From: a virus
Virus record (IMG/VR): IMGVR_UViG_3300043775_000685
Location: 1-26,869 of that record
DNA: 26,869 bases
Direction: 5' to 3' (one strand)
Shown: positions 4,704 through 26,761 of the stretch, piece by piece
Numbering within the stretch: the first letter of the stretch is position 1
Layout: each line of letters starts with the position of its first letter
The notes under the pieces: generated by a model
Database searches by the model: none
What the model was told of the DNA's origin: nothing
Seen by the model: the letters and a program-made list of their open reading frames with translations, nothing else
Made by a program: the position numbers and the translations under genes

Positions 4704-5690
4704 ATGAATATAGTTTTTTTTGTCCACGCTTGGGCAGGGACGCACAACTCAGGAGCCGAGTGGACCGTACAGCATTACGCCAAATATTTTAACCAAAGAG
4801 GTTGCAGTATTGAGGTAATTTTACCCGAAGGCCAAATTTATCCCGATGGTGAAAAGTTTGCGTTTATCAAGTTTATTACTGGCTATTATTCAAACGACTT
4901 TTTTCTAGCCTTACAAAATGCAAGCGTAATATTTACGCATTTGGATAATACAGGCGTTGCGATTAACTGGGCAAGGCAATTTAAAAAGCAATTGATTTTT
5001 TTAAGCCACAACGATTCAGATTATAGGAACGTCAGATTTAAAGCGCAAAATATTCACGTCGTTTATAACAATAAAGCAAACGAAAAGAATGTACAAAACG
5101 GCGCTTATCCAAACGCTTCCATTGTCTGCAAGCCTCCAATTTTTCCTGAGGACGTAAAATATAACCGAAAGCATGGGCAGTATATTACCCTAATTAACTG
5201 CAACGAAAACAAAGGTGGTCAGATATTAATTGAACTTGCCAAGCGATTGCCTAAGCGCAAATTTCTTGGCGTTCTTGGAAGCTACGGCGAGCAAATAATT
5301 GACGACACCTTAAAAAATTTAAAGTACGTGGCCCAAACGCCTGACGTTCATTTAATTTATGGCAAAACAAATATTGTGCTTGTGCCTTCATTTTATGAGT
5401 CTTATGGACGTGTAGGCTTAGAGGCGGCTATTAACAGGCTGCCAGTAATATGCACTCCAACGGACGGATTGAAGGAATGTCTTGGACCTGCTGGCTTGTA
5501 TTTTGACCGTGACGACCTTGACGGAATGGCTGCTAAAATTGAGGAGTTGATGAGCGACGAAATTCTTTACGACTTCCACCAAAACATTATGCGCAACCTT
5601 GCCGAGGAGCGTCTTAAATACCAAGACCAAGAGTTAGAAAGATTCTTTAATTTTATTGTTGACAAAGCAAAGAAACCATACAATGAGTGA
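4704..5690 (+). CDS. Glycosyltransferase family 4-like (GT-B) protein
   Basis: A 328-residue retaining GT-B glycosyltransferase resembling GT4. The N-terminal acceptor domain starts MNIVFFVHAW with NSGAEW (15-20), matching the GG/SGAE loop of the family. The C-terminal donor domain has INCNENKGG (164-172), LGSYGE (191-196) and the signature PSFYESYGRVGLEAA, where E232 and E240 form the E-x7-E motif. No membrane segment or signal is seen. It lies after the capsid terminator and before the connector gene, which it overlaps by 8 nt. It is a second, unrelated glycosyltransferase inside the head module. Substrate and acceptor are unknown; modification of a virion protein is the most economical guess from position, but it is only inference. 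Confidence 0.87.
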   Translation: MNIVFFVHAWAGTHNSGAEWTVQHYAKYFNQRGCSIEVILPEGQIYPDGEKFAFIKFITGYYSNDFFLALQNASVIFTHLDNTGVAINWARQFKKQLIFLSHNDSDYRNVRFKAQNIHVVYNNKANEKNVQNGAYPNASIVCKPPIFPEDVKYNRKHGQYITLINCNENKGGQILIELAKRLPKRKFLGVLGSYGEQIIDDTLKNLKYVAQTPDVHLIYGKTNIVLVPSFYESYGRVGLEAAINRLPVICTPTDGLKECLGPAGLYFDRDDLDGMAAKIEELMSDEILYDFHQNIMRNLAEERLKYQDQELERFFNFIVDKAKKPYNE

Positions 5691-17543: not shown

Positions 17544-17764
17544 AACAGTTTTTTACATGGTTAAAAGGATTCTTGTCTGAGAATGGTGAAGCTTCTAGCA
17601 AGCGATTTGTGGGAGTATTTAGTGCCATAGCCTTGTGCTGGACATTGTACGCAAATCACGATGCGGTAAATGAGCCATCTGAGGCTTTGGTTTATTCCGT
17701 AGCTGCCTTATCTGCTGCTGCATTAGGAATTACTGCTGCGGAAAAGATATTTAAGAAAGAATGA
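17540..17764 (+). CDS. Two-helix membrane protein, probable holin
   Basis: A 74-residue protein with an amphipathic start (MKQFFTWLKGFLSENG), then two predicted membrane segments: RFVGVFSAIALCWTLYA (about residues 22-38) and ALVYSVAALSAAALGITAA (about 49-67), separated by a short polar loop NHDAVNEPSE, and a basic end EKIFKKE. This is the plan of a class II holin, with both ends inside the cell. Its position, three genes before or next to the M15 peptidase, supports a role in opening the inner membrane. It overlaps its neighbours on both sides by 4 nt. Confidence 0.72.
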   Translation: MKQFFTWLKGFLSENGEASSKRFVGVFSAIALCWTLYANHDAVNEPSEALVYSVAALSAAALGITAAEKIFKKE

Positions 17765-18513
17765 AAAACCTATCTAAGGAAGAACTATTAAGCCGTATGG
17801 AGGCAATTAATCGCAGCAATGCGATTATTTACTTTGACCTTAATGGTTTTATTCTTGGAGTAAATGTAATTTTTTTAAAAGCCATGGGATTGGGTGAGGA
17901 TGAGCATAATAAGCTAATCGGAAAACACCATTCTATTTTTGTCAGCTACGAATATTCAAAGTCTGAGGATTACACTAAATTTTGGGAAACGCTTCGAGAA
18001 GGAAAGTTCTTTGAAGGAGAATTTGAAAGGCGAAAAATAGACGGGAGTCCAATCTACTTGCAAGCAACTTATAATCCTATCTTTAATGAGGTTGGTGAAA
18101 TAACCAAGATAATGAAAATCGCAACCGACATTACTGAAACGATTTTAAGCAAAAATAAAATTGAGGAGTTGTCTGGTAAAGTCAAGGCAGAACTAGAAAA
18201 ATCAAACAAACTAAGAGCAGCAATTGAAATTGAAAAGGATGCTGCCCTAAATGACTTGGATGCAACAATAAAAAAAAGCCAAAACGAGTTAATCAAGGTA
18301 ATTGTAAAGTCTGCCTTGTTTGTAATTATGTCCGTTGGTTTTATTACAACAATAATGTATTCCTTTGCAATTTTATCAAATAAGGACACCCAAATAATTG
18401 GCTCTACTTGGTCCAATATGTTTTCCGTACTTTTGACCAATGCTTTTTCAATTGTCGGAACAATCATGGGAATTAAATACGCAACTTCAGAAGACAAAAA
18501 AAATAAAGAATGA
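17761..18513 (+). CDS. PAS-domain membrane protein in the lysis block
   Basis: A 250-residue protein with three parts. Residues about 15-125 form a PAS domain: IIYFDLNGFILGVNVIFLKAMG, then FWETLREGKFFEGEFERRKIDG, and PIYLQATYNPIFNEVGEITK ending in the IATDITE sequence typical of PAS domains in chemoreceptors and kinases. Residues 130-178 form a charged coiled coil. Residues about 180-204 and 218-241 are two membrane helices with a short loop, ending KKNKE. No kinase, cyclase or methyl-accepting domain follows. PAS domains sense redox state, oxygen, light or small ligands through flavin, heme or other cofactors; none can be named here. Both ends should be cytoplasmic. Overlaps of 4 nt with the holin candidate and with the peptidase gene tie it to the lysis genes, so it may couple lysis timing to cell state. 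This is inference. Confidence 0.82.
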   Translation: MKNLSKEELLSRMEAINRSNAIIYFDLNGFILGVNVIFLKAMGLGEDEHNKLIGKHHSIFVSYEYSKSEDYTKFWETLREGKFFEGEFERRKIDGSPIYLQATYNPIFNEVGEITKIMKIATDITETILSKNKIEELSGKVKAELEKSNKLRAAIEIEKDAALNDLDATIKKSQNELIKVIVKSALFVIMSVGFITTIMYSFAILSNKDTQIIGSTWSNMFSVLLTNAFSIVGTIMGIKYATSEDKKNKE

Positions 18514-25344: not shown

Positions 25345-25430
25345 GAATCATTCCTGAGGTGAGAGGCAAGAATGATTCCATAGGTTAAATTAACCTGCCC
25401 CGACAGACTCTCACCTGTTGGGGTTTTTTA
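25345..25430 (+). ncRNA. Predicted structured small RNA or leader with kissing loops
   Basis: Hairpin 1: GAATCATTC (25345-25353) pairs perfectly with GAATGATTC (25370-25378), 16-nt loop. Then the palindrome at 25382-25396 and a terminator hairpin (25398-25423). AGGTGAGAG in loop 1 (25357-25365) is exactly complementary to CTCTCACCT (25408-25416), seven of whose bases lie in the terminator loop, giving a loop-loop kissing interaction. A consensus promoter ends 7 nt upstream and a T tract follows. It is either a separate RNA of about 85 nt or an attenuating leader of the gene starting at 25435. I do not recognise it as a named family. Confidence 0.72.
25382..25396. repeat. 15-bp palindrome, possible operator
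   Basis: AGGTTAA-A-TTAACCT is a perfect inverted repeat around the A at 25389. It lies between the two RNA hairpins. It may be a short RNA hairpin or a DNA site for one of the small helix-turn-helix proteins encoded just upstream. Confidence 0.5.
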
Positions 25431-25434: not shown

Positions 25435-26139
25435 ATGGAAGGGAAAAAATCATTTGTACTTTATACGGACCAAAGAGAAGTCTTTGAAGAGCTTGACGAC
25501 GAGCAAGCTGGAAAGTTAATTAAGCATATTTTTAGCTACGTTAACGACGAAAATCCTGAGGCCGAGGACAAGTTTGTGCGTCTTGCCTTCCTGCCAATTA
25601 AGACCCAGCTTAAAAGGGACCTAAAGATTTGGGATGAAAAAAAGCATTTAAGAGTTGAAGCTGGTAAAAAAGGAGGTCTAGCAAAAGCTAGCAATGCTAG
25701 AATTGACCTAGCAAATCCTAGCAATGCTACAAATTCTCTAGCAAACGTAGCTGTTAATGTAAATGGTAATGTTAATGTAAATGATAATGTTAATGTAAAT
25801 GGTAATGTAAATAAACAAATAAGCGCTGGCGCACTTTTTTCTTTGGAGGAGGTCTTTATTGATTTTAAAAAAGAAAAGCCTTTAAAGAGACCGTATATTG
25901 AGCGAATGGCCCACGTGCATTCGATAGATAATTTAACAGTTGAAAAGCTATTTGAAAAATGGGCAGTTTTAAAAGAAGGTGAAAGCATGACCATAGCCAA
26001 GGCGGAAAATAGTTTTAATCTTTACCTTGCCAACAATTTAAAAACCAGCTACAAGCCACCTGAAAAGTCAAAAACTTACAACGTATTTGACGAACTTTAT
26101 GAGGATTTACAAAAACAAAAACACCAAAATAATGAATGA
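25435..26139 (+). CDS. DUF6291-like replication-associated protein
   Basis: A 234-residue protein. The N-terminal domain (KSFVLYTDQREVFEELDDEQ, AGKLIKHIFSYVND, AFLPIKTQLKRDLKIWDE, then AGKKGG) has the look of DUF6291, found in replication regions of Bacteroidota phages. A low-complexity linker follows: LA-x-x-SNA repeats (residues 82-105) and an asparagine/valine run (106-127). The C-terminal part (SLEEVFIDFKKEKP, then RPYIERMAHVHSIDNLTVEKL) is helical. The linker is encoded by phased DNA repeats that look like an origin. A role like an initiator or helicase-loading protein is inference; the N-terminal family call is moderate. The start codon directly follows a terminator T tract, with no A-rich leader. 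Confidence 0.72.
   Translation: MEGKKSFVLYTDQREVFEELDDEQAGKLIKHIFSYVNDENPEAEDKFVRLAFLPIKTQLKRDLKIWDEKKHLRVEAGKKGGLAKASNARIDLANPSNATNSLANVAVNVNGNVNVNDNVNVNGNVNKQISAGALFSLEEVFIDFKKEKPLKRPYIERMAHVHSIDNLTVEKLFEKWAVLKEGESMTIAKAENSFNLYLANNLKTSYKPPEKSKTYNVFDELYEDLQKQKHQNNE
25678..25752 (+). repeat. Three phased 30-bp direct repeats (iteron-like)
   Basis: CTAGCAAA occurs at 25678, 25708 and 25738, exactly 30 bp apart. In the first two units a CTAGCAATGCTA follows 10 bp after the start (25688 and 25718); the third unit continues as CGTAGCTG. Repeat length equals about three helical turns and the half-units lie one turn apart, so all sites face the same side of the helix. This is the arrangement of initiator-binding iterons. 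Confidence 0.8.
25753..25815 (+). repeat. 18-bp AT-rich tandem repeats (possible DNA unwinding element)
   Basis: Three copies of GTTAATGTAAATGGTAAT (25753-25770, 25771-25788 with one change, 25789-25806), then a partial copy. The strand shown has no C at all across the tract. It directly follows the 30-bp repeats, as an AT-rich unwinding element follows iterons in lambda-like origins. It also encodes the Asn-Val run of the protein. Confidence 0.8.
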
Positions 26140-26761
26140 AATAATTTTAACGCACCTTCGCAAAATGGAATTTGTTTGCGGACTGAAGCAATTTAAAGAA
26201 TATAAAAAAGAAGAGGCCAGCGAATTACTTGCCTGCCTTAGCAAGTTATTTGGCAGTTACGGCTGGATGACAGAGGCAAGAGTTGACTACATTCTTTACG
26301 CTGGTATGCGAGGACAGTACGGCGATTTTTACCACGTAAACGAGAAAACAGTAAGCGTTTGGATTAATCAATATTATGCGCACCACCAAAGCCAAATTGT
26401 GCAGGAGGTCCAAGCTTTAAACAACAAAGAAAAGGAGCCAAGCAACGAAGAAATTGCCTACTGGATTGAAGTTGGTAAGCAGACTTTTCGAGACAATTAC
26501 AAAGAGGCAAAAGAAACTGGACATTGCAAGCACCTAGCTGACTGGGGAGTTTATTGGTTTAATAAATTTCAAGAAAAAGGAATTTTAAAACCTTGGGAGT
26601 TTAACGTGGAGGAAATGGAAAACGACGTGCGGAAAGAGTTACGCTTGACGGTTCGATATGTGGACGAGACCAGCGTTGGCGCCAAGACTAAAAACAAGAT
26701 TTGGAAATTGTTTATTTTGGACGCGATTAGACAAAACAAAGAATTAGATAAATTAATTTAA
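26132..26761 (+). CDS. Unknown 209-residue protein after the DUF6291-like gene
   Basis: It starts MNEIILTHLRKMEFVCGLKQF and has a segment WMTEARVDYILYAGMRGQYGDFYHVNEKT and SVWINQYYAHHQS, a helical middle, and an aromatic section WGVYWFNKFQEKGILKPW. No Walker motif, helicase or nuclease signature was seen. Position directly after the probable initiator gene, with an 8-nt overlap (26132-26139), suggests a replication role such as helicase loading, but the sequence does not prove it. The ATG at 26132 was chosen over an upstream start at 26087. Confidence 0.7.
   Translation: MNEIILTHLRKMEFVCGLKQFKEYKKEEASELLACLSKLFGSYGWMTEARVDYILYAGMRGQYGDFYHVNEKTVSVWINQYYAHHQSQIVQEVQALNNKEKEPSNEEIAYWIEVGKQTFRDNYKEAKETGHCKHLADWGVYWFNKFQEKGILKPWEFNVEEMENDVRKELRLTVRYVDETSVGAKTKNKIWKLFILDAIRQNKELDKLI

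Follow-up and report, generated by a model that had tools for sequence, protein, structure and literature searches.

A DUF6291 gene with an internal repeat array

The question raised by this locus is whether a block of short repeats lying within the coding sequence of a viral gene acts as an origin of replication, and whether the protein encoded around it is the corresponding initiator. An earlier reading of the window (the whole stretch of 26,869 nucleotides analysed here) had placed a lambda-O-like origin in this gene, at 25678–25815. Judged from the sequences of the window and its relatives, the region is in all probability a phage replication origin located inside its own initiator gene. 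The features on which this view is based are as follows.

25435–26139, plus strand: DUF6291 gene of 234 aa, the putative initiator, with the presumed origin inside it; assigned from PF19808, phrog_19415 and the neighbours of its relatives
25435–25668, plus strand: N-terminal domain, codons 1–78, predicted to be all-helical by AlphaFold2; its synonymous sites drift normally
25663–25692, plus strand: basic motif GKKGGLAKAS just 3′ of the N-terminal domain, a candidate DNA-recognition peptide
25678–25751, plus strand: iteron array of direct and inverted half-sites, conserved against drifting spacers
25753–25812, plus strand: C-free tract made up of ten TGWWAN-type hexamers that spell VNVNGNVNVNDNVNVNGNVN in the protein, a candidate unwinding element
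25813–25884, plus strand: DNA-conserved segment after the tract, codons 129–150, with a synonymous observed/expected ratio of 0.175
25885–26139, plus strand: C-terminal domain, exchanged in relatives directly after the tract
26132–26761, plus strand: next gene (209 aa), overlapping the putative initiator gene by 8 bp and conserved in the clade

The 234-aa protein belongs to DUF6291, as the whole Pfam model PF19808 is covered by residues 6–84 (E 3.1e-24) with 85.4 bits, above the curated cut-off of 27.2; it also matches phrog_19415 (E 5.7e-28). In a Pfam scan of the window protein to E 0.1, DUF6291 was the only family found and the lambda O family profile was unmatched. The gene is therefore better called a DUF6291 gene than initiator-like in general, and a kinship with lambda at the sequence level has to be given up. 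Neither the name DUF6291 nor a description of such a family appeared in the open-access literature searched.

A fold obtained from the single sequence (pLDDT 34.7) was discarded for an AlphaFold2 model based on a 33-row alignment. The latter predicts helices at residues 11–18, 22–36, and 46–93 (block pLDDT 70–91), a disordered linker of low pLDDT at residues 94–131, and a helical C-terminal domain. Neither Foldseek nor VIA-align 2 matched this model convincingly to a PDB structure, and no DNA-binding fold known from solved structures was recognised for the N-terminal domain; PDB sequences searched with a profile yielded no match. The low-complexity linker, rich in Ala, Asn, and Val, would be the outcome of the DNA elements being translated in that frame. 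In three pairs of relatives (L039/L040, L043/L044, and L035/L036), the C-terminal domains differ while the N-terminal part and the tract are similar.

Iterons, hexamer tract and the segment beyond

The array begins 243 bp inside the gene. Direct half-sites CTAGCA were read in the window at 25678, 25688, 25708, 25718, and 25738, and the longer CTAGCAA is present in five exact copies within 25678–25751, spaced by 10, 20, 10, and 20 bp. Inverted partners, absent from the earlier description and seen on reanalysis, lie at 25695 (TGCTAG), 25725 (TGCTAC), and 25747 (GTAGC); positions 25688–25700 read CTAGCA-A-TGCTAG, a perfect palindrome centred on one base. The original prediction had described three 30-bp repeats, each divided into half-sites one helical turn apart. 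The sequence CTAGCAAA does occur at 25678, 25708, and 25738, and the two full units (25678 and 25708) agree to 77%, but the third unit is truncated. Similarly, CTAGCAA is repeated 10 bp on in the first two units (25688 and 25718), while the third consists of one half-site and a partial inverted one. Tandem Repeats Finder (TRF) reports a period of 30 with 2.3 copies and a score of 89. Across the window CTAGCAA occurs 14 times against 4.75 expected, a count reached by no shuffle, and none of 300 shuffles contained at least three copies within 62 bp.

The C-free AT-rich tandem repeat was recovered as described: there is no C from 25752 to 25815, and TRF finds an 18-bp unit in 3.4 copies (score 108). 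The tract, 80% A+T, is the only place in the window where (TGWWAN)4 is found, and the pattern appeared in no shuffle. When separate 60-bp regions of the window are ranked by stability, three fall below the tract, which comes fourth from the bottom. An easily melted AT-rich tract thus adjoins the iterons in the manner of a lambda-type origin. Beyond it, within 25813–25884, GCGCTGGCGC (25823–25832) is followed by the T-rich run ACTTTTTTCTTTGG (25833–25846). The GCGC and CGC arms of 25823–25846 are kept in 17 of the 17 genes displayed despite residue changes, and this hairpin is a possible priming or helicase-entry site. The span 25678–25815 initially proposed for the origin thus contains constrained DNA but ends too early, since conserved DNA extends to about 25884.

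Selection at the DNA level

The clade of the window was sampled through 53 IMG/VR relatives, reduced to 29 distinct genes in the codon alignment, with the synonymous expectation derived from codon use. The observed/expected ratio of synonymous change is 0.149 for codons 80–150 and 0.653 outside, and none so low was obtained in 20,000 permutations. Broken down by part, the iterons stand at 0.17, the tract at 0.11, and codons 129–150 at 0.175, compared with about 0.47–0.75 outside the linker. The synonymous codons of the linker are nearly frozen, and it is therefore the DNA itself that is conserved. A check proposed at the outset was that repeat spacing should be kept while residues drift. Among 26 relatives, the half-sites retain their spacing, and mean identity was 0.975 at direct and 0.949 at inverted half-sites against 0.821 in the spacers, in keeping with this proposal. 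When the half-site mask was shifted circularly, a single one of the 76 shifts did as well as the real position. Repeated palindromic sites of the initiator type, conserved as DNA, were thus found within the putative initiator gene. One relative (L025) matches the window at 0.71 of nucleotides in its N-terminal part, 0.89 in its tract, and 0.82 in its C-terminal part, but at 0.27 in the iteron segment, which indicates that the iterons were replaced and both neighbours retained.

The same architecture across the DUF6291 family

A genome scan provided 80 further loci, and more were taken from phage records. The layout of helical N-terminal domain, lineage-specific palindromic iterons, (TGWWAN)n tract, and swappable C-terminal domain recurs in phages of Bacteroidota, Clostridia, and Proteobacteria. 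Linker DNA was more repetitive than synonymous-codon shuffles (p ≤ 0.01) in 69 of 101 DUF6291 genes; applied to the other parts of these 101 genes, the same test singled out one N-terminal and four C-terminal regions. The iteron segments contain 264 short palindromes where 104 are expected, a 2.5-fold excess, and the N-terminal parts 162 where 177 are expected. The iteron types found in family linkers include TAGCAA, CGAAGC, TCAACA..TGTTGA, AACGnnCGTT, AACCCAsTGGGTT, TCGCAT, ATGCG..CGCAT, GTTATAAC, and AACAACC. In one member (L058, 5001–6206), the array is greatly expanded, with a linker of nearly 200 codons and many CGAAGC half-sites.

In the tract, codons keep fitting G-W-W-A-N-T while the residues vary (V/D, N/S/T). 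Tract serine is encoded by AGT in 86 of 89 cases, as opposed to 180 of 1047 elsewhere; as TCT and TCA are equal to AGT in A+T content, this bias does not come from an A+T preference. Asparagine is AAT in 329 of 336 cases and aspartate GAT in 195 of 206.

The tract can also be used on its own as a search pattern. A DNA-only scan of viral contigs with (TGWWAN)7 returned at least 120 stretches. The 80 loci listed contained 76 ORFs of at least 60 aa, of which 67 are DUF6291 by Pfam and three have a DnaB_2 domain. Among the matches listed, 106 of 120 stretches lie beside such a domain according to a domain profile that covers the N-terminal domain only and was trained partly on scan sequences; the remainder among these matches are several truncated members and a few unrelated microsatellites. 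The reversed pattern yielded 46 stretches in the entire collection, 11 of them near the domain, and long GATAGT-type tracts fit the forward and reversed readings alike. Tract-bearing ORFs match PHROGs annotated as primosomal, replication initiation, and DnaD-like loader proteins. In each of 9 related records the tract is confined to a single site, and no second array beside a tract was found in three related genomes. In Aeromonas phage 4_L372X (L141, 4001–4378), the annotated DUF6291 ORF departs from its usual frame within a GATAGT tract. Past an ambiguous base it encodes IVIVIV and soon ends, which looks like a change in the length of the tract or a misassembly.

Genome context

In the window, genes for an Erf annealing protein and Gp157 lie upstream of the DUF6291 gene. 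The 209-aa product of the gene that follows has no significant Pfam or PHROG match, and across the clade of the window this gene falls into no known family; it is possibly a helicase-loading partner, a role guessed from its position. Among 97 representatives, the gene immediately downstream encodes DnaB_C in 34, Toprim in 10, an IstB/DnaC-like protein in 7, and a G39P-type loader in 2. Among the neighbours already annotated in distant members are the primase/helicase of elemoC, the DnaB of one Vibrio and one Aeromonas phage, and a COG1484 protein of Cellulophaga phi13:2. By inspection, no helicase was recognised within 5 kb after the next gene in L016.

The detrended GC-skew minimum lies at a mean distance of 0.131 of the genome from the tract in 17 genomes or large fragments, where 0.25 is expected at random; after a crude coding-strand correction, the distance is 0.196. 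It is close in some genomes (207 bp in Harreka, 1.1–1.3 kb in relatives from the clade of the window) and distant in others, and in the circular genome of Harreka, genes switch strand near the minimum too. In the window, the skew is positive nearly throughout because the genes run one way. Overall, GC skew is weakly consistent with an origin at the tract.

Directly upstream of the DUF6291 ORF, a strong terminator-like hairpin with a T run (25397–25424) adjoins a 16-nt inverted repeat (25341–25356/25367–25382). The hairpin could be an attenuator controlling expression of the initiator.

Alternative explanations

The repeats may in principle serve the protein only, as a disordered Ala/Asn/Val linker produced by replication slippage and devoid of DNA function. 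Slippage can generate tandem repeats, and the low complexity and the low pLDDT of residues 94–131 would suit such a linker. However, the codons are frozen in relatives whose flanking synonymous sites drift, half-sites are kept while spacers change, and the wider family exchanges residues under an unchanged TGWWAN pattern, which makes this explanation highly unlikely. Frozen codons would also follow if an antisense gene overlapped the region or the transcript formed a structured RNA, and a 154-aa ORF does exist on the minus strand (25536–26000). This ORF covers codons 34–188, whereas the constraint covers codons 80–150, and it acquires extra stops in several relatives (L009, L031); the antisense gene was rejected on these two grounds. 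With a folding z of −0.61 and no Rfam match for an RNA structure, overlapping constraint of either kind is extremely improbable.

Alternatively, the repeats could be an operator or another regulatory site, for example for autoregulation of the replication operon, with the origin located elsewhere. Half-sites arranged as palindromes would fit a repressor-type site too, self-regulation is common among initiators, and the terminator-like hairpin stands just upstream of the ORF. Yet the array is placed well within the gene with the hexamer tract next to it, promoter-like matches at the array are no better than chance, and the three related genomes have no other array beside a tract. The family association with helicase, primase, and loader genes also speaks for replication, and an operator is very unlikely. 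The lambda-O-like reading is instead supported in the sense of "works like": iterons, tract, and layout recur in relatives, the DNA is conserved with its half-sites kept, and distant relatives preserve the architecture with other iterons. Counting against it are an N-terminal domain in which no known DNA-binding fold was recognised, a next gene of no known family in this clade, skew minima that lie farther from the tract on strand correction, and the three less stable 60-bp regions.

Basic motifs, associated iterons and a second family

Which part of the protein would recognise such diverse iterons? The N-terminal domain was considered as the determinant and rejected (Mantel r 0.055, p 0.1): the same iteron class is shared by 14–21% of pairs at 20–70% N-terminal identity, and by 50% only above 70% (16 pairs). 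The type of basic motif after the long helix, on the other hand, predicts the iteron sequence in 74 representatives. With the iteron segment taken to exclude the motif codons and three more, the proportion of shared iteron 6-mers is 0.275 for the same motif type and 0.073 for different ones, a difference of 0.202 against a maximum of 0.034 in 2000 permutations, which ignore phylogeny and use motif classes defined after the linkers had been viewed. The proportion is 0.068 for different motifs at N-terminal identity above 0.55 and 0.241 for the same motif at identity below 0.4. GG(L/I)KSGE goes with CGAAGC (4 of 4; elsewhere 1 of 70), GNLKRW with ATCGCA (5 of 6; elsewhere 1 of 68), and GKxSAE with TCAACA (16 of 19; elsewhere 3 of 55). 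From this pairing we infer that the basic motif is a candidate recognition peptide for the iterons, although the association can also arise from adjacent segments travelling together without recognition.

One tract match (L150) has a different N-terminal family, whose relatives match or nearly match DUF1376, below the Pfam cut-off. This DUF1376-like set matches PHROGs for primosomal and replication initiation proteins and shares the layout of motif, palindromes, and (GAAAAT)n tract, the presence of the tract being biased because the scan was partly seeded by the peptide ENENENEN. The motif–iteron pairing, unseeded by the peptide and with motif classes drawn after part of the set had been viewed, is xSRRxN with CATATG in 42 of 42 and xxRWNK with GGYANTRCC in 11 of 12. 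It is conceivable, if slightly on the doubtful side, that DUF6291 and DUF1376-like initiators both carry a portable specificity cassette, in which a basic peptide and its cognate iterons are exchanged together, with a common TGWWAN tract read as a single strand. Such a cassette would sit between a generic N-terminal domain and the hexamer tract with its replaceable C-terminal domain.

Proposed mechanism and relation to known systems

In the mechanism envisaged for the intragenic origin, the DUF6291 protein would bind the CTAGCA half-sites, probably via the basic residues at the end of its long helix, and a nucleoprotein complex would assemble on the helically phased array. Opening would then take place in the weak, C-free tract alongside, and the C-terminal domain, alone or with the product of the next gene, may load the replicative helicase there.

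In lambda, the origin lies in the middle of the initiator gene O and consists of inverted-repeat iterons and an adjacent AT-rich tract, and a partner gene follows (PMC7466680, PMC5043065). The present locus is alike in its intragenic layout, in inverted-repeat iterons with an AT-rich tract adjoining, and possibly in the order of initiator and partner gene. It differs in that its half-sites are short and irregularly paired, compared with four 19-bp inverted repeats in lambda, in that its tract is a strict series of TGWWAN hexamers, and in that its next gene matches no known helicase loader. The oriL of Bacillus phage SPP1 (gp38/gp39/gp40) similarly combines direct repeats and an AT-rich unwinding element inside gene 38 of the origin-binding protein (PMC6316719). 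At the present locus, too, repeats and an AT-rich element lie in the putative initiator gene, and two DUF6291 loci precede a gene for a G39P-type loader. However, the likeness to gp38 is one of layout, the protein family being different, and SPP1 possesses a second origin, oriR, whereas in the three related genomes a second array did not turn up. At oriC of B. subtilis, DnaD binds single-stranded TnnT pairs (PMC10201434). DnaA-trios are trinucleotide repeats that flank DnaA boxes and are bound single-stranded by DnaA. The hexamer tract resembles the DnaD element and the DnaA-trios as a series of short polar repeats beside double-stranded initiator sites, in the opening region. Unlike them, its unit is the hexamer TGWWAN, it lies in a phage gene, and it stays in place when relatives carry a different C-terminal domain. 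A hexamer so strict and polar, retained even where the iterons and the C-terminal domain have changed, suggests a specific reader; by analogy, the tract may be recognised as a single strand. Thus, the locus very likely represents a known, intragenic origin type with a protein family different from that of lambda, and the surprise would be the specificity cassette.

An origin at this position would supply a function and a mapped origin for a large family of phage proteins annotated as unknown, and (TGWWAN)n would be a DNA signature for locating such origins without annotation. A repeated polar melting motif, hitherto discussed for DnaA origins, would be placed in phage initiator genes. If the motif–iteron pairing reflects recognition, it would amount to a natural code of origin specificity across dozens of phage lineages, from which new replicons might be developed for Bacteroidota and Clostridia. 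If the cassette exists, this specificity could be read from about ten residues.

Some genes elsewhere in the window deserve mention. A group 1 glycosyltransferase gene (4704–5690) lies among the head genes, and another ORF (2045–2623), without a Pfam match, is glycosyltransferase-like by eye. A PAS-domain protein of 250 aa (17761–18513), unusual for a lysis region, is encoded next to the phage M15 peptidase gene.
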